Below are positions 18,489 through 59,611 of a DNA stretch of 64,000 bases, piece after piece; the stretch's first letter is position 1; each line of letters begins with the position of its first letter. The DNA is from Physcomitrium patens. Lineage: Eukaryota; Streptophyta; Bryopsida; Funariales; Funariaceae. Location of the stretch: assembly GCF_000002425.4 (NCBI RefSeq), contig NC_037269.1, forward strand, positions 5,143,623-5,207,622, read 5' to 3'. The position numbers and the translations under genes were made by a program. Below the pieces are notes generated by a model. The model made no database searches, had not been told where the DNA came from, and saw only the letters and a program-made list of their open reading frames with translations.

Positions 18489-19022
18489 TATTATAGACAT
18501 ATACATGTAAACCAATAATTATCTATATGATTAGATAAAAATAAATAAAAATAGGTTAATTCTATGATATCTTCTATAGAAGCTTTATAGACATTTTTTA
18601 GACTTTATAAGTATCTGTAATTGACTTTTTAGATTAGAAACGTGGTGAACAAGTTGGCCATGTGCCATACATGTTGGTAGCTTGAAGAACAAGCTAACTA
18701 TGTGGTCCACACACAAAAAACTTGCCTTGTAAGCTAAGGCATGTGTCTTATAAAGTCAACACATATTAGAAGTCCTATAGAACATCACTATATAGCTCCT
18801 AGTTATATAGTAAATATAGAGGCAAGAGTGAAGTGCTCTTCACTCTTGTTAATTCTTTTATTACTTCTAGTCTAGATTTAATAATCTTTAGTTTTTTTTT
18901 TCTTTTGGCAATAGCCATTCTAGTTTTTTTAATATACATATTACTTTATGCTATTTTGTCACCTTTCTTTTGATATAAAATTTTCAAATTTATGCATCTT
19001 CTTCTAGTTTATGTCCTTGACA
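18489..19022 (+). repeat. 5' LTR of B-5
   Basis: 534 bp, starting TATTATAGACAT (decayed from the TGTCATGGACAT seen in the 3' LTR) and ending CCTTGACA. A TATA-like TAAATATA lies at 18811. The foldback AAGAGTGAAG...CTTCACTCTT follows, then ACTCTTGTTAA at 18842. Confidence 0.85.
18842..18852 (+). promoter_or_regulatory. Predicted RNA 5' end / self-primer of B-5
   Basis: ACTCTTGTTAA starts 31 nt after the TATA-like box and pairs with the 11-nt site at 19025-19035 (10 of 11, the exception being a possible wobble pair). The role is inferred by analogy with Tf1. Confidence 0.6.
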
Positions 19023-46591: not shown

Positions 46592-47152
46592 TGTGAAGGA
46601 CAAGAACTCGATGAAAAAGTAATTCAAACAATAGAGCCTTCACTCAAAGAAAGCTAACAAAATATAAATAAATAAGTATGTATATTGAAAGAGAAACTTG
46701 AATGGCTATTGCGAAAGACTAGAAAATATAAAGACTCTTGAAACTAAATTAAAAATAAGAAAGGAGTTAACAAGAGTGAAGAAGGCTTCACTTTTGTCTC
46801 TATATATACTATCTAACTAGGGGCTACATGGCCATGTCCTATAGGACCTCCAATATGTGTTGACTTTATAGGACACATGCCTTGACTTACAAGACAAGTT
46901 TTTCTATGTGAGGGCCATATTGTTAGCTTGGTTTTCAAGCTAACAACATGTGTGGCACATGGCCAACTTGTTGACTACGTTTTTAATCTAAAAAATCAAT
47001 TAAAGACACCTATAAAGTCAAAGCAACATCTATGAAGCTTTTAGGAAGCTTCCATACTAAATACTATAAAATTATCTTTCTATTATCTACTTTTACTTAC
47101 TTCTACTTATTTGAATATGTAATTAGTGGCTTACGTGAATATGTCCGTGACA
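46592..47152 (-). repeat. 3' LTR of B-1
   Basis: In element orientation it starts TGTCACGGACATATTC and ends TCCTTCACA. The strong purine tract AGAAGGGGGAATAA lies just inside (plus strand ttattcccccttct at 47153). Confidence 0.9.
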
Positions 47153-47239
47153 TTATTCCCCCTTCTAGGAACGAGTTCCACGAGGAGCGGTCACCATATG
47201 TTGAGGAAATCTATAATGCAACAAATTATATTCGCCACA

Positions 47240-47590
47240 TACTCTAATCTTTATTCTCTTCAAAGATGATTGATATGGCCTCTCAACCATCGATAGTGTC
47301 CTATAGCACGGCAGGAAGACCACTTAATTATTTGATCATTGTTCAGGCCTTCATAACTTCCTTCGAATAGAACATTTGGAACACCATCATGAGTTGTTCC
47401 TACCTCTAGCAAAATCACCAAACATCGGGAGTCCCTTCCCAAATCGTGATATCAAACACGTTGTATATCGCCATCTATTCGAGGAAGAACATGTCGTTCT
47501 TGAAGATCTTCATGTCGATTGCGTCGTCTTGAAGGTTGTGACAATCATAATGTCTCATCCGATAGGTCAGTAAATAAAGGCTCTTGAGTC
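47240..47590 (-). pseudogene. B-1 accessory segment between pol and 3' LTR
   Basis: Minus-strand text CLVILLEVGTTHDGVPNVLF, then KWSSCRAIGHYRWLRGHINH, lies between the chromodomain and the purine tract. It is related to the segment after pol in element A (SLVIVFESEP...GHYHWLQGPMNHLPRE) and in B-5 and B-4. The longest open part is 47260-47442. The family is not recognised. Upstream stops show that this copy is broken or that the start is elsewhere. Confidence 0.5.
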
Positions 47591-47771
47591 GAATCCACTA
47601 GTTGTTGGTTCTCCATCTCTTGAGCGTCACAACTACAAAGAAGCTACAAACAAGGATTGAAAGTAGAATGTTATCTTGCCTAGATGTTGTTTCTTTTATA
47701 AAGAAGATTTTTATCTTAATTTTGATGGATTTCATTGATGAAAAGCCTCCACTACCTTTGCTGCATTTGCA

Positions 47772-48231
47772 GCTTCATCGAACTCATTTGACAGCATCTT
47801 TGTCGTGGTAGATCGGCTTACAAAAATGGCACATTTTGTTCCTTGCAAGAAGTTCAAGAAGAACTGACAAGAACTAGATTAATCAAATGAATACAAGAAC
47901 AACACCAGAGAGGTGAGCTAGAGCTCCAAGAGATGTGTTGTGGAGACTGAAGAACTCTTCAGCCTCGATTCCAATATATACTCTTATTTAGGAAGCTTCT
48001 CAAGCAACTTCTACCAACTAGGAAGCTTCTAGAAGGTTCCAGAGACTTGCTTCTAGAAGGTTCTAGAAACTTATCTCTAGAAGGTTCTAAGGACTATGTC
48101 CCGAACATCTTCTACCAACTAAGAAGCTTTTAGAAGGTTCCAGAGACTTGCTTCTAGAAGGTTCTAGAAGCTTGTCTCTAGAAGGTTCTAGAAACTTGTC
48201 TCTAAAAGGTTCTAAGGACTATGTCCCTAAC
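47772..48231. mobile_element. Chimeric A-family fragment: integrase piece fused to an inverted LTR
   Basis: About 80 bp (to about 47855) match the A integrase in plus orientation (compare 56080-56160: CATTTGACAGCATCTTTGTC, GTGGTAGATCGGCTTACAAA). They join, at AAGAAG microhomology, an A-type LTR in minus orientation (about 47850-48231, ending with the complement of TGTTAGGGACATAG). The LTR lacks its last ~50 bp. The whole insert sits in the B-1 chromodomain coding region without a clear target duplication. The LTR carries its own heat-shock-element array. Confidence 0.7.
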
Positions 48232-51200
48232 AGATTCTTTATTGGCTCCCATATGTGTTCACTAATATCATATCCACGCCAATGGATAAGATATTTCAAT
48301 TTATTTTGGCATCACCTTGAATCTAAGACTTCTTTTACTTTAAACTCTTCAATATTGTCCACTTCTATAGGAAGAGGTGGAGCTTATCATCTTCTTGGTA
48401 TGTCCACTGTCTTATATGGTTCAAGAAGAGACATGTGGAATACTGGATGGATTTTCATTGACTCCGATAGATGTAAACGATATGCAACAAGATTGATTTG
48501 TGTAGAAATAGAAAATGGTCCAAGCCTTCGATAGTCCAACATGTCACAAGGACAAGTGGTCTTGATATTGTGACGAAGTAGCCATACCTTATCATCCAAG
48601 TGGAATGGAAGTTATTCCTTTCAATAGACATCGCATTGACCTTTTGTTGTTCTTGAGCCTCTTTTAACTGCACCTTCATCATTGCATATAGCTCTGACAA
48701 ATGAATCACCGAATCTTTTGCAGCAGGATTATCAACTTTTGAAAAGTCAAAAGTATTAAGTCATGGATAATAATCATAATTAGTAAAGAAAGGTATTTTT
48801 TTTGTAGAAGAATATATCGTGTTATTGTAAAAAAACTCTATCAATGGCAAAAGAGTTGTCCAATCATCTTGTTGGTAGTTAATGGTACGTCTTAAATATT
48901 GCTCTAAAACTTAATTTACACGCTCCGTTTGTCTATTAGTTTGAGGATAAAATATCGAAGATAGTTTTATATCCACTTTTAAAATCTTGAAAAGAATCCG
49001 CCAAAATCTTGATACAAATTGAGTTCTCCTATCTAATATAATATCCTTGGATAATCCATGATAGCGATAGATATTGTCAAGAAAGAGCTTAGCTGTTTCT
49101 TTTTCTGTGATAGATTTTGTACATGATACAAAATGTGCCATCTTGGTAAAAAAGATCTACTATCACGAATATAGAGTCATAAGAACCTGAGATTGGAAGA
49201 TCCGTGATGAAGTCCATAGAAACAAAAGACCATGGTTGTTCTAGAATGGGTAATGGCTGAAGAAGTCCAAAAGGTTGATGACGAGGAGTTTTTGATCTTG
49301 AGCAAACATCACATGATTGTACAAAATCTTTGACTGCCTTCCACATGTCAGGCCACTAAAAATCCCTAGATATTAGCTCCAAAATCTTATTGTATCCAAA
49401 ATGTCTTGGTGCTAAGAAGTCATGACGAGCTTAAAGAATATGTAAACGTGCTTCTCCTTCTGGAACATATAGGCATCCTTCGAAATAAAGTAGGTTGTTC
49501 TTGAACTCAAATTTAGAGAGATCATGAGATCTAGAAGAATTATTCTTGATATCATGAACAAGAGGGTCTGAAGACAAACTTGATTGGACTGGCTTGAAAA
49601 AAGTTAAATCAACAGTCAATGTTGATTTTATTGCTTGAAGATGAAATTGCTCCGGCTTCAAGAGAACCATTCTTTGTTGCTCAAAAGCTGCATCTCCTTC
49701 TTTTGATACAAGATAAGAACGTCTAGATAACGCATTGGACAAACCTTGTTGTTTTTCTGGCCGATAAGTGATGATGAACTCGAATCTTGATAAAGATATG
49801 CTTCAACGAGCTTGACGACAATTTAATACGCGTACTGACATAAAATACTGAAGGTTCTTGTGATCCCTATATATGGTAATCAGATTGAAAGCACCTTCTA
49901 GATAATGATGCCATTCTTGAAAAGAATCCACAATTGCAAGAAGTTTTTTGTCATGTATCTCATAATTGATTTCTGCTGCTAAGAATTTTTTTGAATGAAA
50001 GGCTATTAGATGAAGTTTGTCATCTGTTCCCATTTGTGACAAAACTACACCCAGAGCAAAGTCTGATGCATCTGTTTCTATAAAGAATGCTTTGAAAAAA
50101 TCAACACGATACAAGATTGGTATAAAAACAAACGTTGTCTTCAAAGATTCAAAAGCAACTTCTGCTTCTTGATTCCATTGGAGTTTGTCTTTACAAGTCA
50201 AACGTGTAAGTAGAGCTATAACTCGAGAGAAGTCTTTAATGAAGATTTGATAGTATTTGACAAATCCCAAAAAAGCATTGGACATCTCTTACCATTTTTT
50301 GGATCTTTCAATGTATAATAGTTTGAACTTTCTTAGGATCCATCATAAGTCCATCATTTGAAATGATGTAACCTTAGAAATTGACTTGAGTAGTGTGGAA
50401 TACACACTTTTTTATTTTTACAAAGAATCCCGCATCTCTTAATTTTTGTAACACATGACTAACATGAAGTTCATGTTCTTCTGGATTCATAGAATAGATC
50501 AAGATTTCGTCTTGATAACAAACCACAAAATCTTCCAAAAACTCTCAAAAAACATCATTCATTAGATATTGAAAAGTTGTTGGTGTATTTGTAGGTCCAA
50601 AAGGCATGACGTTGTATTCAAAATGTCCATACCTAGTTCGAAATGTAGACTTCCATTCATCTCCTTCTTAAATGCGTACCAAATTATATGCTCCCCATAG
50701 ATCTATTTTTGTATAGATCTTAGCTTGATTCAGCTGATCAAGAAGTCCAGATATTAAAGGTAGTGGATACCTATTCTTGCTGGTAATCTTATTGAGTCCT
50801 CGATAATCAACACACATCCGCAATGATCCATCTTTTTTCTTCACAAATAGAATTGGAGCTCCTGCTGAAGATTTAGAATGGCGTATGAAATTCTTGGCTA
50901 GATTTTCTTCAATATACTCCTTGATTTGAGTTAACTCATTTTGTCATAAACTGTAGATTGCTCTGAAAGGCGATTGTGCTCCTTCTTGAAGGTCAATTGA
51001 GCAATCATAGGGACGATGTTCCGGGAGTGTATCCGCATTCTTTTTTTTGAATACATCTTGAAATTCTTGATATTGGCTTGGAATGCCACGTGAAGTCTTT
51101 ACATCATTAGAAACGGGTGTGGCATAACTAATATATGGTGATTTTTTCATAGCAGCATGCAAAAAAGCTTTTGCACCTATAAACATGGATTTAATTGAAC

Positions 51201-51580
51201 TGCACTTATGACTTTTTACTTGATCAACTACACTGGTAGTTACATTTTTAGAAAAAATAAGAGTTCGAGAAATCCAATCTATTTGAAGGTTGTATTTTTC
51301 TAACCACAATAAACCTAAAATGATTGGATTAGAGGGAGATTTAATGATATTAAATACTACAAAACTATTATGACTATTGATTATTACTTCTATAGGAAGG
51401 AATTCGTGAGTAATATCTCTAAAAAACAATGGACGACCATCTATGATTTCTACATGAACATGTTTAATTCTCTTTACTAAAGATATGCTATATCTTTCGA
51501 TAAATCCTTCATCTAAGAAACACGTTGAGACTCCTGAATCTAACAAGACAGAGGCTTTGTAATATTTAGGTCCTCAAATA
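48232..51580 (-). pseudogene. B-1 pol: protease, RT, RNase H, integrase, chromodomain
   Basis: The protease begins in the frame 50944-51546 with MLDSGVSTCFLDEGFIERYS (catalytic DSG present), then HVHVEIIDGRPLF. RT is at 50290-50940 with stops, its YLDD region changed. RNase H is at 49803-50285 (IETDASDFALGVVLSQMGTD, INYEIHDKKLLAIVDSFQEW). The integrase zinc region and core are at 48911-49350 (QSCDVCSRSKTPRHQPFGLL, SMDFITDLPISGSYDSIFVI, DIILDRRTQFVSRFW). The chromodomain is at about 48240-48400 (KYLIHWRGYDISEHIWEP, KNL) and is cut by the chimeric insert. Its first half extends right to about 48450. It is the best-preserved B copy, yet it still has several stops. Confidence 0.8.
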
Positions 51581-51962
51581 ACATTTAATGTTAAACAAAA
51601 AGAGGGTTCTGAGGAGAGAATAGGACCTTTACTAGATGTTGTGCAAGGTTCCAGCCACACAGTCCCCATTGTAGCTGGACAAACTCGTTTTCCAACATGT
51701 TCTCTTCTTTCATAGCCATACTCCTCATTTTGTGGTTGCGTCATTTCTTTCGACAATGTTGAGCTGTTGTTTTGGTTCTCCAGAATATTAACATAATCCT
51801 TCTTGACGGCGACAAGTCTTTTCTTGTTCAGTAAGAGATTTGAAACCTATTGCATCAATTTACATGTCTTCTACTTTCGAATGTATGTATTGAAGAGATG
51901 TTGGTGTTGCTATTGAATTATAGTGTTAGGGACATAGTCCTTAGAACCTTTTAGAGACAGGC

Positions 51963-52134
51963 TTCTAGAACCTTCTAGAGACAAGCTTCTAGAACCTTCT
52001 AGAAGCAAATCTCTAGAACCTTCTAGAAGCTTCTTAGTTGGTAGAAGATGTTCGGGACATAGTCCTTAGAACCTTCTAGAGATAAGTTTCTAGAACCTTC
52101 TAGAAGCAAGTCTTTGGAACCTTCTAGAAGCTTC
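51963..52134 (+). promoter_or_regulatory. Tandem heat-shock-element array in U3 of A (5' LTR)
   Basis: Alternating TTC/GAA with 2-nt spacers, four units each, occur at 51963-51980 (last unit GAG), 51987-52004, 52016-52033, 52088-52105 and 52117-52134. An example is TTCTAGAACCTTCTAGAA. This is the consensus bound by heat-shock factor trimers. The array ends about 40 bp before the TATA box. Heat response is inferred. Confidence 0.75.
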
Positions 52135-52175
52135 CTAGTTGGTAGAAGTTGCTTGAGAAGCTTCCTAAATAAGAG

Positions 52176-52218
52176 TATATATTGGAATCGAGGCTGAAGA
52201 ATTCTTCAGTCTCGACAA
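52176..52218 (+). promoter_or_regulatory. TATA box and predicted RNA start / self-primer of A (5' LTR)
   Basis: TATATAT at 52176-52182. AGTCTCGACAA at 52208-52218 begins 32 nt downstream and is exactly complementary to 52347-52357. Between them lies a near-perfect palindrome (about 52190-52215: CGAGGCTGAAG and CTTCAGTCTCG around AATT). The same arrangement is at 57915-57957 in the 3' LTR. Confidence 0.7.
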
Positions 52219-52346
52219 CTCATCTCTTGGAGCTCTAGCTCACCTCTCTGGTGTTGTTCTTGTATTCATCTGATTAATCTAATTCTTGCTAGTTCTTCTT
52301 GAATTTCTTAGTAGATATCAAGTCCGTATTCTCTGTCCATGACAGT

Positions 52347-52357
52347 TTGTCGAGACT
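52347..52357 (+). promoter_or_regulatory. Primer-binding site of A (self-priming type)
   Basis: TTGTCGAGACT is 2 nt inside the 5' LTR (which ends at 52344) and is complementary, 11 of 11, to the predicted RNA 5' end. An alternative tRNA-Met-like site, AGATATCAGAGC at 52369-52380, matches TGGTATCAGAGC at 10 of 12 positions but is 24 nt from the LTR, too far for normal tRNA priming. Confidence 0.7.
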
Positions 52358-52624
52358 TCACTCACCTCAGATATCAGAGCTAGTTTCTACTTTGTTAGAG
52401 TGTGGATTACCCCTCTGCTTGGAAGTGTACTAGCACTTTAGAGGTTGCGGATTACCCTACTCTAAACTGATACTTCTTTTGTTACAATATTGGAGTCTTA
52501 TTCTTCTTGGAGAGAGTGGATTACCCCTTTTCTTGAAGCTCTTAAGGCATTTTAGAGGTTGCGGAGTACCCTCCTCTAAACCAATATTGTCTTGTTGTGG
52601 AGTCATTTTTGTCCTTCTCTTAGA

Positions 52625-53650
52625 ATGGTTGGGGGCCAAGACATTAGTATGACGGAAAGTTCAGAGTCCAACTTAGATGCTATCATGAATGCCCTCGCTA
52701 CGTTATTGCAAAGAACTGCAGAGATTGAAGGAGTCGTGGCAAGGCTTTATAATGATGGAGCATCTGGGATGGCACAATCTAGGTTGCACCAGCCTCAAAC
52801 TTCTACACTTGGAGAAGCAACTTTGCCTCAGGTTCGACAAGCACCGCTGGTTCTACAACATAAGGAATCCCAAGTTAGCCTTCCGGACAAGTTCGATGGT
52901 ACACGTTCCAAGTTTCAAGGATTCGTCAACCAAATCAGATTGATAACAGTTTTACAGCCCGAACGCTATTCAACGGAGGAGTCACGTGTTGGGCTTGTTG
53001 GAACCTTACTTACAAGATAAGCTCTATCATGGTTTGCTCCTTTGTTTGAGAAACAATCGTCCATACTAAACAACTTTGAAACCTTTTTGGAGGCATTTGC
53101 GAAAGCATTTGGTGAACACGACAAGGTTCGATGGGCTACAACAAAGATTCGGTCACTACGACAAGGGATGCGTTCTACATCAGTCTATGCATCGGACTTC
53201 AGGCAATTAGCATGCGACATCAATTAGGACGAAGAAGCATTGATGAGTCAATTCTATTGGGGTTTAAAGGACGATGTGAAGGAATTGATGTTAACTCTTC
53301 CTAATCCGCAAACGCTCAACAAAGCTATTAGCCAAGCTGTGAAGTGTGATAATCACCTATTCCAACGTCGCCAAGATCAACGTTCAAGACAACATACGAT
53401 TCGCCACACCCCAACTATGTCGACAAGTAGCGTGAATTCACATTCAGAGGTAGAAGACATGCAAATTGATGCGGTACGTGTCAAATCTCTTACTCTAGAA
53501 GAAAAAAAGCGGCGTATGGAGGAAGGTCTATGCATGTATTGCGGTGAAGAAGGCCACAAAGTTGGAAACTGCCCCAAGAAGCAAAATCAACGTATTATCA
53601 AGACGAGGGGTGCGTTTATTCAGGAAAACAAGGATGCCCAGCCACAATAG
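52625..53650 (+). pseudogene. A gag (two in-frame stops)
   Basis: One frame from ATG 52625 to TAG 53650, about 341 codons, with premature stops at 53018 (TAA) and 53225 (TAG). Capsid text: VSLPDKFDGTRSKFQGFVNQ, WFAPLFEKQS, FLEAFAKAFGEHDK and LTLPNPQTLNKAISQAVKCD. A CCHC zinc knuckle CMYCGEEGHKVGNC (CX2CX4HX4C) near 53530 should bind RNA. Gag would form the particle that packages element RNA. Pol begins in a different frame, overlapping the gag end (reading CPATIGTVRLDSE). Confidence 0.85.
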
Positions 53651-56600
53651 GAACCGTGCGGTTGGACAGTGAAATATCGCAACAACAACTAGGTTCCTTT
53701 CTTTCCACTCAACTTGCCCTTTGTTATACAATCCCTTTGCTTATTGGCCCTCAGAAACTGAGAACCTTAGCATTATTAGATTCAGGAGCATTTGCTTGTT
53801 TTTGGATGAAGAATTTGCAAAGCGTCATTAGTACAAAAATCCAAACATGTTCACGTTGAGATCACAGATGGACGACCTTTATTGTCTGGTAGTGTCACCC
53901 ATGAATCAGAACCTATAGAAGTGACGTTTAAGGACCATAGTAGTCATATTATTTTCAATATTATTAGAACTCCATCAAATCCTATTATTCTTGGTCTTTC
54001 CTAATTGGAAAAGCATAACCCATTCATAGATTGGAAGTTGCAGAAGATGACCTTTCCTACAAAACCACCCAAGAGCAAGCCTAGTAGAAAACCCCGAATA
54101 GAGAAATCCTTATTTATTGGAGCAAGAGCATTTATAAGATTGTCCAAGGAAGGCACACCGTTTGTCATTTATGCGGCTCTAACTACCGGGGAGAAGATCT
54201 CGACAGCAAGTATACTGGAGCAATATAAGGATTTTAAAGACATATTTCAAAAAAAAAATGCCGACATGCTACCGGAACACAGACCATATGATTGCGCCAT
54301 AGACTCACAGGAAGGAGCACAACCGCCTTTTGGCCCAATCTACAATCTATCGTAGATGGAGTTGGCGGAGTTGCAGAAGTACATTGACGAGAATCTAGCC
54401 AAGAACTTCATCCGTCATTCAAAATCGTCAACTGGAGCACCCATCTTATTTGTGAAGAAGAAAGATGGCTCGTTGCGGATGTGCGTGGACTATCGAGGCC
54501 TCAATAAGGTAACAAAGAAGAATCGTTACCCGTTACCCTTGATTTCTGGTCTCTTAGAACAACTTGGACGTGCAAGGATCTTTACAAAAATTGATCTAAG
54601 GGGAGCTTACAACCTCGTACGAATCAAGGAAGGAGATGAGTGGAAGACAGCGTTCCGTATAAGGTATGGCCATTTTGAATATAATGTCATGCCCTTTGGT
54701 CTTATCAATGCTCCAGCGGTCTTTCAACATATGATGAATGACATTTTGTAAGAGTACCTTGACGATTTTGTTGTCATCTATTTCGATGATATTTTGATAT
54801 TCTCCAAAAATGAGGAAGTGCATGAAAAACACGTTCGTTTGGTATTGGAGAAACTACGCGAGCGAGGACTATATGCTAAGTTGGAGAAGTGTTTATTTCA
54901 CCAAATAGAGATGGAGTTTCAAGGATTCGTTGCAACTACGGAAGGCTTGAAGATGGACCCCAAGAAGGTGGAAGCAATTGTGTCTTGGGAGGTTCCAAAG
55001 ACGGTTAGAGACATACAATGCTTTCTTGGTTTTGCCAACTTCTGTTGGGTCTTTATCAAGAATTACTCTCAAGTTGCTGCTCCTCTCACTCGGTTGACAT
55101 GCAAGGATAAGCTGGAATGGGGACCTCTAGCAGAGAAGGCGTTTCAAAACCTGAAGACCGCATTTATTACGGCTCCAATCTTGGTACATACAGACTTTAC
55201 AAAGGCCTTCTATTTAGAAACTGATGCTTCGGATTTTGCTTTGGGAGCTGTACTTTCACAAATGGGAGAAGATAAGAAGCTCCATCCGGTTGCATTCTAT
55301 TCTCGAAAGTTCTTTGCTGCTGAAATCAATTATGAGATCCACGATAAGGAACTTCTTGCTATAGTGGATTCTTTCCAAGAATGGCGTCACTTTCTTGAAG
55401 GAGCTTCACATCCAGTGACCGTATACACAGATCACAAGAATTTGGAGTATTTCATGTCGGCTCGAGTTCTAAATCGATGTCAAGCTCGATGGAGTATATT
55501 GCTATCTAGGTTCGATTTTATTATCACTTATCGACCTGGAAAGCAGCAAGGACTATCTGATACCTTATCGAGGAGATGGTATCTTGTACCAAAGGCTGGA
55601 GAAGCAGCGTTTGATCAACAATGTACGACATTGTTGAAGCCAGAGCAATTTCAGCTTTGTGCTATTATTATGCCAATTGATGCTCACTTCCTGAATCAGG
55701 TGCGTGCCGTAACCATTGAAGATTCAGTAGCCATTGATATTAAGCAGCGTGCCAATGACGACAAGTTCAAGGTGGAGGGAGATCTTTTATACTTTGAAGA
55801 GCGGTTATATATCCCAAAAGGACCAGCACGACTCCGAGTTCTTCAATCTCGCCACGATTTTCCAGCTGCGGGACATTTTGGATTCAACAAGACCTTAGAA
55901 CTTATTTCTTGAGATTTTTGGTGGCCCCAAATGTGGAAAGATGTGAAATATTTTGTCCTCTCCTACGACATTTGTTCAAGATCCAAGAATCCTCGGCATC
56001 GCCCTTATGGACTCCTACAGCCATTGCCGATTCCACATCGACCATGGTCTTCAATTTCCATGGACTTCATCACGGACCTGCCATCATCGAACTCATTTGA
56101 CAGCATCTTTGTCGTGGTAGATCGGCTTACAAAAAAGGCACACTTTGTCCCTTGCAAGAAGACATCGTCTAGTGAAGTCACAGCAAGGCTCTTTCTCGAT
56201 AATGTGTATCGATATCATGGACTACCAGATGATATCGTATCAGATCGAGGAACCTAGTTCGTATCAAAGTTTTGGAGATCTCTCTTTGAGATACTGAAGG
56301 TGGATATCAAGCTTTCTTCGGCTTTTCATCCTCAAATTGACGATCAAACGGAACGGGTGAAGCAAGTCTTGGAACAATACTTACGATGCAGCATCAACTA
56401 TCAGCAAGACGATTGGACCACATATCTGTCGCTAGCCGAGTTTGTATATAAGTCGACTCAATACACACCATTCTTTTCCAACTATGGGTATCATCCAAAG
56501 CTTGATTTATTGAGTCCATCAACAAATAACAATCCAGCAGCTGAAGGATTTACGAAACAACTATCAGAGCTTCAAAATACGTTGAAGCTTCAATTACAAT

Positions 56601-57101
56601 CCGCTCAAGAATCCTATAAGGCGTCTGTAGATAGATTTCGAAATCAAGCACCTACTTTCAAAATTGGAGATAAAGCATGGCTTCTTCGACGAAATATCAA
56701 GACCAAGCGATCATGTGATAAGTTGGACTATCGAAAATTGGGACCATTTATCATCCAAAAGCAAATCAATTCAGTGGCGTACCGTCTGGAATTATCAGCT
56801 TCTATGAAGGTACATCCAGTCTTTCATGTTTCTTTGTTGGAGCCTTATCGAGAGTCATCTTTTTTTAGAAGAGTGCAATGTCCGCCACCTAGTATTGAGA
56901 TCGAGAACCACGAGGAATACGAGGTTGAAAAGGTGCTGGATTCTCGGCGAAGGTGGGGCAAGTTGGAGTAACTTGTTCATTGGTGCGACTACGACATTAA
57001 TGAGCAAACGTGGGAGCGAGCTGAAAATCTCACCAATGCGCCGCAAAAGGTACAAGAGTTTCATCAACAACATCTTCATAAACCTAAGCCGGTTCGACAA
57101 T
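53640..57101 (+). pseudogene. A pol: protease, RT, RNase H, integrase, chromodomain (six stops, frameshift)
   Basis: The protease has LALLDSGAFACF (about 53765), then a frame change near 53800. From about 53870 a single frame carries the rest. RT (about 54400-54960) has [40 protein letters not shown] and the catalytic motif YFDD at 54779-54790 instead of YLDD. RNase H has LETDASDFALGAVLSQMGED and YTDHKNLEYF. Integrase: the zinc region (about 55850-55985) reads YDIC where CDVC is expected, so one zinc-binding Cys is lost. Catalytic residues are seen in SMDFITDLPSS, DIVSDRGT and the Glu in TERVKQVLEQYLR. The chromodomain is at about 56900-57060 (YEVEKVLDSRRRWGKLE, stop, LVHWCDYDINEQTWERAENL). 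Stops are at 54002, 54353, 54749, 55910, 56255 and 56969. Confidence 0.88.
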
Positions 57102-57333
57102 AGCTTCTTTCTGAAGCTTGCTCACCCAAGAATATAAGAAAGGGAGAGATCACCACCAAAATTCGTAGTTGATGTGGTTATTTTCTCCAAGATAAAATAG
57201 AATTTTTTCAGTAGCGATAGTTTGGTCTTCTGATATGGATAGCCAAGAGATAGATACTATGTCAGTCACATTATCTCAACCAACTAGTTCACGAAGGTGA
57301 CCCCGAGATGAAGAACCACATGCACCATGATGA

Positions 57334-57561
57334 CGACGGAGGATACCAAGTAACCGATCACTGGTGATTGTATTTGAGTCCGAGCCTGCTTACGATGGTC
57401 AACCAGAAGGCATATTTGCAGGACAATTTCACAATAAAGACACGGAAGTTCATGCTTGGTTAGAAGTTGAAGGAGTGGGCCACTACCATTGGCTTCAAGG
57501 GCCGATGAACCACTTACCTCGTGAACAACAGTTGGAGTTCATAGGAGACGTTATGCGATAG
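57334..57561 (+). pseudogene. A accessory segment between pol and 3' LTR
   Basis: Open frame of about 75 codons reading SLVIVFESEPAYDGQPEGIF, then EVHAWLEVEGVGHYHWLQGP and MNHLPREQQLEFIGDVMR before TAG at 57559. It has no in-frame ATG after two TGA codons near 57330, so the true start is unclear. It is related to segments at the same place in B-1, B-5 and B-4. No known family is recognised. It could be a third element protein or a detached pol C-terminal domain. Confidence 0.5.
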
Positions 57562-57624
57562 ATCTTCATTTTCTTGAGTTAGTACTGATTAACAACAACA
57601 TTGCTTCTCAGAGACCTCGAAGCT

Positions 57625-57638
57625 AAAGGAGGGGGTGA
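57625..57638 (+). promoter_or_regulatory. Polypurine tract of A
   Basis: AAAGGAGGGGGTGA immediately precedes the 3' LTR and would prime plus-strand DNA synthesis. Confidence 0.85.
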
Positions 57639-58083
57639 TGTTAGGGACATAGTCCTTAGAACCTTCTAGAGACAAGTTTCTAGAACCTTCTAGAGACAAG
57701 CTTCTAGATTCTTCTAGAGACAAGCTTCTAGAACCTTCTAGAAGCAAGTCTCTGGAACCTTCTAGAAGCTTCTTAGTTGGTAGAAGATGTTAGGGACATA
57801 GTCCTTAGAACCTTCTAGAGATAAGTTTCTAGAACCTTCTAGAAGCAAGTCTTTGGAACCTTCTAGAAGCTTCCTAGTTGGTAGAAGTTGCTTGAGAAGC
57901 TTCCTAAATAAGAGTATATATTGGGATCGAGGCTAAAGAGTTCTTCAGTCTCGACAATACATCTCTTGGAGCTCTAGCTCACCTCTTTGGTGTTGTTCTT
58001 GTATTCATCTGATTAATCTAGTTCTTACGAATTCTTCTTGAACTTCTTGGTAGATATCAAGTCTGTATTCTGTGTCCGTGACA
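57639..58083 (+). repeat. 3' LTR of A
   Basis: 445 bp, TGTTAGGGACAT to GTCCGTGACA. The U3 duplication starts at 57639 and 57788. The first U3 unit is 149 bp against 125 bp in the 5' LTR. It holds the same heat-shock-element array, TATA (57915) and RNA start (57947). Confidence 0.93.
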
Positions 58084-58830
58084 TATAGTTATGTTGAGGT
58101 TCACTTGTACGGTTCTTAGATCAAAATTCAAAAAGGTGATTGTCGTACTTCATAGCAAAGTCAATTGCTTGACTCAATGTTTGAGGATCAAGTAAGTTGA
58201 GCATTAATTTTTTTACCTCATATTATAATTTATAGAAAAATTGGCTAATAAATGCAGCATCATCTCACTTGATATTAGTTGCAAGTTGTCAAAATTGTGA
58301 AGCATACAATATTACTGATCGATTGCCTTGTCATAAAATATGAATCTTATTGGTTGCAATACGAGTTGCATCATGTTCTCCATACATGGATCAAATTCTG
58401 CCAGAAAAACCTCTAGATTATCCAATATTGGATCTTGTTGTTCAAGAAAAGATGAAAACTACGATACTACTGAACCTCAAAAAAAAACGTACCAATGAAT
58501 CTAACTTGGGATCCTGGAGTTGAATAGCTTTGGGATTGAAGTTCAATCCAAAGTTGCACTCAATTGATAAAACCTCAAAACTTAGATCTGGTGCCATGAA
58601 ACTTCTCGGGTAGGGCAATTCTTGGTTCTCTAACACTGGAAGGGCGTTCCACCATAGGGGAAGGGACATGATTTGGTGCAGATGTTGAAGCAGCTCTAAT
58701 CATTTCTATATCTTCACTTCCTGCCAATCTTGTTGCTACTTCTGGTGGTAAATTTAGTTGATGCAATGCAAGCATTAACTCCCTCAATTGTTCTTACATT
58801 TATGCCATTGCACTCTTCATTTCAGCAACT
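58084..58830 (-). pseudogene. B-1 gag, N-terminal part (split from the rest by element A)
   Basis: Minus-strand gag from about 58830 leftward: MRELMLALHQLNLPPEVATR near 58787, ALPEKFHGTRSKF, and near the left edge the family motif DPQTLSQAIDFAMKYDNHLF. After A (58083-51924) gag resumes at 51923 with the zinc-knuckle region and the protease leader (YERREHVGKRVCPATMGTVW, within the frame 51574-51756). Several stops are present. Confidence 0.75.
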
Positions 58831-59037
58831 TCTATCATGATAACACTTAGAAATGAAAAGATGTCTAATATCACTCAAGACAAATAGAAGAGAGGACTTG
58901 AGAATAAAAAAAATACTAAAGACAATATCAGTTTAGAAGAAGGTAATCCATAACTTCTAATATGCTTGTGTCTTATCAAGAAAAAGGGGTAATCCACTCT
59001 TAATCAAGATAAGACAAAGCTTTGATATTGTAAGTGT

Positions 59038-59048
59038 ACTCTTGTCAA
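59038..59048 (-). promoter_or_regulatory. Primer-binding site of B-1 (self-priming type)
   Basis: On the minus strand TTGACAAGAGT lies 2 nt from the LTR edge at 59051. It is complementary to the predicted RNA start at 59227-59237 apart from one wobble-compatible position. Confidence 0.65.
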
Positions 59049-59050
59049 TC

Positions 59051-59611
59051 TGTTAAGGACGAGAACTTGATGAAAAAGTAATTCAGAGAAGTGAGCCTTC
59101 TCTCAAAGAAAGGTAACAAAATATAAATAAACAAGTATGTATATTGAAAGAGAAACTGGAATGGCTATTGCCAAAGACTAGAAAACATGAAGACTCTTGA
59201 AACTAGACTGGAAACAAGAAAAAAGTTAACAAGAGTGAAGAAGGCTTCACTCTAGTCCTTATATATACTATCTAACTAGAGGCTACGTGGCAATGTTCTA
59301 TAGGACCTTCAATATGTTTTGACTTTGTAGGACACATGCCTTGACTTACAAGGCAAGTTTTTCTATGTGTGGGCCACATTGTTAGCTTAGTCTTCAAGCT
59401 AATAACATGTGTGGCACATGGCCAATTTTTTGACCATGTTTCTAATCCAAAAAGTCAATTAAATACACCTATAAAGTCAAAGTAGCATCTATAAAGCTTC
59501 TAAGAAGCTTCCATATCAAATACTATAGAATTATCTTTCTTTTATCTACTTTTACTTACTTCTACCTATTTATATATGTAATTACTGACTTACAAGAGTA
59601 TTTCTATGAAA
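59051..59611 (-). repeat. 5' LTR of B-1
   Basis: 561 bp, the same length as its partner but with scattered differences and a decayed tip (plus-strand tttctatgaaa instead of tgtccgtgaca). TATA is on the minus strand at 59261-59268. The predicted RNA start ACTCTTGTTAA is at 59227-59237. Confidence 0.85.

Follow-up and report, generated by a model that had tools for sequence, protein, structure and literature searches.

A decayed Ty3/gypsy chromovirus of the moss Physcomitrium patens with a probable 11-nt self-primer conserved across its genomic copies

Introduction

Reverse transcription of Tf1 is self-primed: RNase H cleaves the RNA of the element after nt 11 and synthesis is extended from this 11-mer. 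The fission-yeast elements Tf1, Tf2, Tj1 and Tosmo carry a chromodomain and have an RNA 5' end complementary to a primer-binding site (PBS) downstream of the LTR, and the cited portions of the accounts of these elements also describe possible extra duplexes beside the PBS, forming a 'pretzel' (PMC10085805, PMC4600332). Among plants, self-priming was predicted by Neumann et al. 2019 for 12% of LTR elements and for most members of Tcn1, a group that they found in moss and club-moss; the rule applied there asked for 10 bp or more of complementarity with the 5' LTR, beginning 0-5 bp after it. The same prediction was made for the TAR lineage of plant Ty1/copia elements (Houba, Osr-1) (PMC6317226). 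The chromodomain aromatic cage, defined by Y24, W45 and Y48 (PMC3350952), was reported in that survey at frequencies of 95% (Tcn1), 59% (Chlamyvir) and 56% (Galadriel) of the elements, and for non-seed plants only (PMC6317226). Physcomitrella is known to carry Tcn1 elements (PMC3350952); for SM-Tcn1 of Selaginella neither tRNA priming nor self-priming was found by Novikova et al. 2010 (PMC2864245). As far as the relevant parts of the respective reports go, the sequence TGGTATCAGAGC is the PBS of Tos17 and Lullaby (PMC3977881) and of the grapevine element Noble (PMC2576258).

In this study, an LTR retrotransposon (element A) was analyzed within a window of 64,000 nt, i.e. the whole stretch of P. 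patens DNA under consideration. Element A resembles the moss and club-moss Tcn1 elements (REXdb; PMC6317226) in being a plant chromovirus with an aromatic-cage chromodomain, a self-primer in the LTR and a complementary site 0-5 bp inside the element, and its 5-bp target duplication is of the length found in 93.4% of the plant elements of that survey. It shares with the fission-yeast elements the complementarity between the presumed RNA 5' end and a PBS downstream of the LTR, as well as the chromodomain, but only the central duplex is clearly common to the moss families, and a candidate third duplex in a fixed position was seen in family A alone. The TAR lineage belongs to the copia superfamily, whereas element A is of the Ty3/gypsy type. 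Since self-priming had been predicted for most moss and club-moss Tcn1 elements in the cited part of Neumann et al. 2019 (PMC6317226), a self-primed moss chromovirus is an already known kind of element, to which element A adds a new member. What the Tcn1 account, in its cited part, does not describe is the core of a tRNA-Met binding site beyond the self-PBS (PMC6317226), which is present in element A.

Results and discussion

Structure, age and classification of element A

The boundaries and the recognizable parts of element A are as follows:
51919..51923, no strand: target site duplication TATAG, left copy
51924..52344, plus strand: 5' LTR (TGTTAG...ATGACA; TG...CA ends)
52176..52182, plus strand: TATA box TATATAT of the 5' LTR, 32 nt 5' of the self-primer
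54356..54751, plus strand: reverse transcriptase fragment (RVT_1)
54752..55912, plus strand: open stretch encoding reverse transcriptase / RNase H
55913..56254, plus strand: integrase fragment with H2C2 and rve core, both slightly under the curated cut-offs
56258..56968, plus strand: C-terminal part of the integrase, with the SH3_Tf2-1 domain and the start of the chromodomain
56972..57100, plus strand: remainder of the chromodomain (PF00385), 3' of an in-frame stop
57625..57635, plus strand: polypurine tract AAAGGAGGGGG
57639..58083, plus strand: 3' LTR (TG...CA ends)
58084..58088, no strand: target site duplication TATAG, right copy

The 5-bp TATAG duplication on both flanks pins the LTR ends independently. 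Alignment of the two LTRs shows 21 mismatches in 421 bases and one 24-nt gap, which marks element A as an old, decayed copy. Its domain order (RVT_1, RNase H, H2C2/rve, SH3_Tf2-1, Chromo) places the integrase before the chromodomain, and Ty3 is the closest relative of known structure for its protein pieces. All three cage residues, as read by eye, are present in the chromodomain (EYEVEKVLD, VHW and CDY), on both sides of the stop codon. Of 6467 protein matches, those named among the best 120 were of fern and of fungal origin (Rhizopus, Parasitella and Morchella). Domain content, the cage (which is not exclusive to Tcn1) and these fern and fungal matches make membership of element A in the Tcn1 (Tf1/sushi-related) clade likely, though not proven.

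The probable self-primer and its binding site

Three short sequences are central to the proposed priming:
52208..52218, plus strand: self-primer AGTCTCGACAA, the presumed RNA 5' end
52347..52357, plus strand: primer-binding site TTGTCGAGACT, fully complementary to 52208-52218, beginning 2 nt past the LTR
57947..57957, plus strand: copy of the self-primer in the 3' LTR

A preliminary description of this DNA had reported the 11-mer AGTCTCGACAA at 32 nt after the TATA box, its exact complement 2 nt inside the 5' LTR and the same 11-mer, at the same spacing, in the 3' LTR, and all these coordinates proved exact. The corresponding starts in the 3' LTR are 57915 for the TATA box and 57947 for the primer copy. 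With the LTR end set by the TATAG duplication, exactly 2 nt separate the LTR from the start of TTGTCGAGACT. The 11-mer occurs in the window, at no more than one mismatch, at 4 sites (3 of them exact), compared with 0.74 expected.

With 11 bp paired, starting 2 bp after the LTR, element A falls under the published self-priming rule. By the rule for tRNA-primed elements (TGG... fitting a tRNA 3' end and lying within 0-5 bp of the LTR) it is not classified as such: TGG is absent from GTTTGTCGAGACTTCA, the first 16 nt past the LTR, so that no tRNA could prime at the LTR edge by its CCA end. The preliminary description had set the element against a norm of tRNA priming in plants, but self-priming is unsurprising in a moss, having already been predicted for most moss and club-moss Tcn1 elements in the cited part of the plant survey (PMC6317226).

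Conservation of the pairing across the host genome

Copies were sought in the host assembly (470 Mb, 101 contigs), and four samples of loci were scored: (i) 40 of 3083 candidates of a genome search, with the window copy included, (ii) 20 of 107 matches of the A protein, (iii) 40 of 150 matches of the protein of a second element of the window, X, and (iv) 20 of 138 matches of a fern protein. The loci were taken from among the matches listed, those of samples (iii) and (iv) by eye, and are non-random. In total, 113 of the 120 sampled 5' regions could be placed and 7 could not. A locus counted as placed if 9 or more of the 11 bases agreed with a known primer and site, a criterion that favours paired copies. 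With this bias, Watson-Crick pairing at 11/11 positions was found in 90 of the 113 placed copies, and 9 more were paired 11/11 with one G-U (99/113).

In the first sample the pairing was 11/11 in 30 of 40 copies, and each of the remaining 10 had a single one-sided change. The second yielded 19 placed loci out of 20, 11 of them perfect and 4 more with one G-U. Among the fern-protein matches, all 14 placed X-type copies and 4 of the 5 A-type copies were paired 11/11, and the open frames at these 19 placed matches range from 853 to 1189 aa; the pairing is therefore retained in little-decayed copies.

No two-sided change of a pair was found inside the A family in an alignment of 58 rows (55 distinct), from which L071, L074 and L082 were excluded as unplaced, and its pairing was no better than that of shuffled alignments (98.4% of cells in the real versus 98.5% in the shuffled ones). 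Two A-type copies, L109 and L110 (contig C20, near 2.90 Mb), share their orientation, primer, site and spacer at a distance of 6 kb from each other, and are possibly parts of a tandem LTR element.

A second family with compensated changes

The window contains two further, old elements (X and Y) of a second family:
59226..59236, minus strand: self-primer of the older element X, ACTCTTGTTAA
59038..59048, minus strand: primer-binding site of element X, TTGACAAGAGT
18842..18852, plus strand: self-primer of Y, another old copy of the X type, ACTCTTGTTAA
19025..19035, plus strand: primer-binding site of copy Y, TTGACAAGAGT

In both window copies ACTCTTGTTAA and TTGACAAGAGT form 10 Watson-Crick pairs and one G-U. 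This G-U was considered as a conserved feature and rejected: most sampled family members have C at that position, so it is a product of decay, and the commonest primer/site pair of the family is ACTCTTGTCAA/TTGACAAGAGT. One locus placed during the sampling of this family, L097, was found to be spurious. The X-family primer differs from that of the A family at positions 2, 6 and 8 (G/C, C/T and A/T), and the site carries the complementary change at all three. Primer and site are complementary over 11 nt in either family. In the X family the TATA box lies 31 nt upstream of the primer, and CA (occasionally TA or AA) plus 2 nt precede the site in the flanks displayed. The TATA spacing of 31-32 nt and the C/A start context fit, in both families, an RNA start at the self-primer.

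Covariation at the paired positions, which the preliminary description had proposed to look for across copies, thus exists as three compensated pairs between the A and X families and is absent within the A family. It consequently reflects a single split between the two families. The compensated changes are what would be expected of a functional pairing, although they represent one evolutionary comparison.

Element X itself (46592-59604, minus strand), with LTRs about 88% alike, is an old target that holds the nested element A and a rearranged scrap. The scrap (47775-48232) is of the A family and is not a clean solo LTR; it is set within another repeat. Its LTR part (48232-47847, minus strand) has lost the last 35 nt and has the self-primer AGTCTCCACAA, with one change, whereas its plus-strand part (47775-47852) comprises 78 nt that are 96% like the integrase region of element A and overlaps the LTR part by a few bases. 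It looks like an aberrant insertion product.

Proposed mechanism of priming

Transcription of element A would start at A52208, and the first 11 nt of the RNA would fold back onto the 11-nt site that begins 2 nt inward of the 5' LTR. As in Tf1, RNase H would then cut after nt 11 and the released 11-mer would prime minus-strand synthesis. We consider it very probable that element A is a decayed Ty3/gypsy chromovirus of a moss host, most likely of the Tcn1 clade, that used the first 11 nt of its own RNA for this purpose. The self-priming reading of the preliminary description is upheld as the best one, because the pairing is conserved across copies and compensated between two families and because GTTTGTCGAGACTTCA, being devoid of TGG, offers no fit for the CCA end of a tRNA at the LTR edge. 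Conservation and the three compensated pairs support, at the sequence level, the view that moss chromoviruses, among them copies whose open frames are long, self-prime their reverse transcription, and thereby render the prediction testable in a tractable laboratory moss.

The core of a tRNA-Met binding site behind the self-primer site

One additional conserved sequence lies in the leader:
52372..52380, plus strand: TATCAGAGC, core of an initiator tRNA-Met binding site, downstream of the self-PBS

In both families TATCAGAGC sits 10-14 nt past the self-PBS, and its start is 23-27 nt past the LTR end (27 nt in element A). The spacer between the self-PBS and the core varies by subfamily (TCACTCACCTCAGA, ACACTAACTTGAGA, ACCTTTATCTTAA, RCATTTTCACTGG and ACACYTACAA). 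The core is exact in 97 of the 113 placed copies (34/40, 17/19, 29/35 and 17/19 in the successive samples). The 3' end of a host tRNA-Met(CAT) gene (locus L128; also reported by ARAGORN on L131 and L133), complemented and with CCA included, reads TGGTATCAGAGCGAGG. On contig C93, loci L128-L130 are three initiator-type tRNA-Met matches with equal scores, about 13.1 kb apart; of these, ARAGORN was applied to L128.

Could the initiator tRNA-Met be the true primer, annealing at this core, with the 11-nt self-pairing being merely RNA structure? Beyond the conservation of the core in both families, the complete site TGGTATCAGAGC, present in L059 and L112, fits 12 nt of the tRNA-Met(CAT) 3' end plus CCA, and none of 5000 shuffles matched the tRNA-Met alignment score of element A or L112 (in an earlier test with a longer tRNA sequence, 6 of 5000 did for element A). 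The scores of three other leaders, with shorter matches, were reached by 30-91 of 5000 shuffles. The complete site, however, is restricted to these 2 of 113 placed copies, and element A has AGA where it has TGG, the CCA-pairing bases, so that a tRNA would have to be extended from a mismatched 3' end. Moreover, priming at the core would add about 20-24 nt to the LTR end, but the 3' LTR of element A ends with TGACA, followed directly by TATAG. We therefore regard tRNA-Met as the primer as hardly probable. A tRNA matching better directly after the LTR was what the preliminary description had named as evidence against self-priming; no CCA end fits there, and the tRNA-related sequence that does exist begins 27 nt past the LTR and, in element A, is devoid of the CCA-pairing bases.

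Given the mismatched 3' end in element A and an LTR end that is not where priming at the core would put it, TATCAGAGC is read as a relic of tRNA priming or as a second contact, and not as a working primer site. In the cited part of their reports, Tos17, Lullaby and Noble have TGGTATCAGAGC / TATCAGAGC in the leader, as do the moss elements (the fit to tRNA-Met was computed here and is not taken from those papers). In those elements the PBS is TGGTATCAGAGC, at the very start of the post-LTR sequence, whereas the moss core starts 23-27 nt past the LTR, behind the self-PBS. A tRNA-Met core beside a self-PBS was not found described in the titles, abstracts and main-text parts of the literature on self-priming and chromoviruses that was consulted. 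Tentatively, moss Tcn1 elements may keep behind the self-PBS an annealing site for initiator tRNA-Met that is either a fossil of a tRNA-primed ancestor caught switching or a place where the tRNA still binds (for packaging, for structure or as a back-up primer); in the one subfamily with the full 12-nt site, dual priming would be possible in principle. This arrangement offers a handle on how LTR elements pass between tRNA priming and self-priming.

RNA folding and extra duplexes

Two further features of element A are relevant to the structure of its RNA:
52333..52345, plus strand: small hairpin CTGTC-CAT-GACAG, adjoining the self-primer duplex on its 5' side
52246..52255, plus strand: CTCTGGTGTT, candidate partner of 52370-52379 (a third, Tf1-like 'pretzel' duplex)

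When the RNA of 52208-52357 was folded, the full 11-bp stem appeared in both the MFE and the centroid structure (z -2.41; 4 of 200 shuffles equally stable), while 52208-52400 as a whole showed no stability beyond that of shuffles (z -0.27). The hairpin and the 10-bp match between the LTR and the region after the PBS (52246-52255 / 52370-52379) are kept in the A subfamilies examined, without two-sided changes, and no partner for a third duplex was seen in a fixed position among the X copies displayed.

Folding by itself forms the stem, and the complementarity might be a structural or regulatory device in which the 5' 11-mer closes an RNA domain for packaging or translation. Such a role would leave unexplained why the site sits, in both families, where a PBS must be to define the LTR end, with a constant 2-nt gap and a constant length of 11 nt, and why the sequence adjoining the LTR of element A suits no tRNA CCA end; we consider it very improbable.

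The probability of a chance match is negligible: complementarity of at least 11 nt arose somewhere in the LTR in 35 of 20,000 dinucleotide shuffles, and looser scans of the window yield 9-10 nt pairs, many of them AT-rich, but an 11-nt match with the LTR partner confined to the start-site zone arose in none of 20,000, 90 of the 113 placed copies are fully paired, and the compensated second family already refutes chance. The window-wide scan for TATA box, primer and site returned A, X and Y together with AT-repeat pairs and lone 9-10 nt chance pairs, and is therefore unspecific under 11 pairs. Among viral contigs searched for relatives, 4 stretches had the pattern and none was confirmed.

Other features of the leader and U3 regions

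A search of 51900-52900 against Rfam gave just miRNA-like matches in the U3 repeats, far under the gathering scores. The leader of element A contains, at 52397-52586, two 76-nt repeats that are 79% alike, each with GTGGATTACCCC, and this motif was also found in the leader of element X; the repeats perhaps have a role in packaging. Heat-shock-type runs were absent from the single family X U3 examined. Both U3 regions of element A (51963-52134 and 57678-57873) contain perfect heat-shock-type elements, in which TTC and GAA alternate in 5-bp steps over up to 4 units. Each of them has 9 overlapping run starts with at least 3 units, and together they contribute 18 of the window's 29 plus-strand starts of this kind. 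Judging from these motifs, it may be guessed that element A was heat-inducible.
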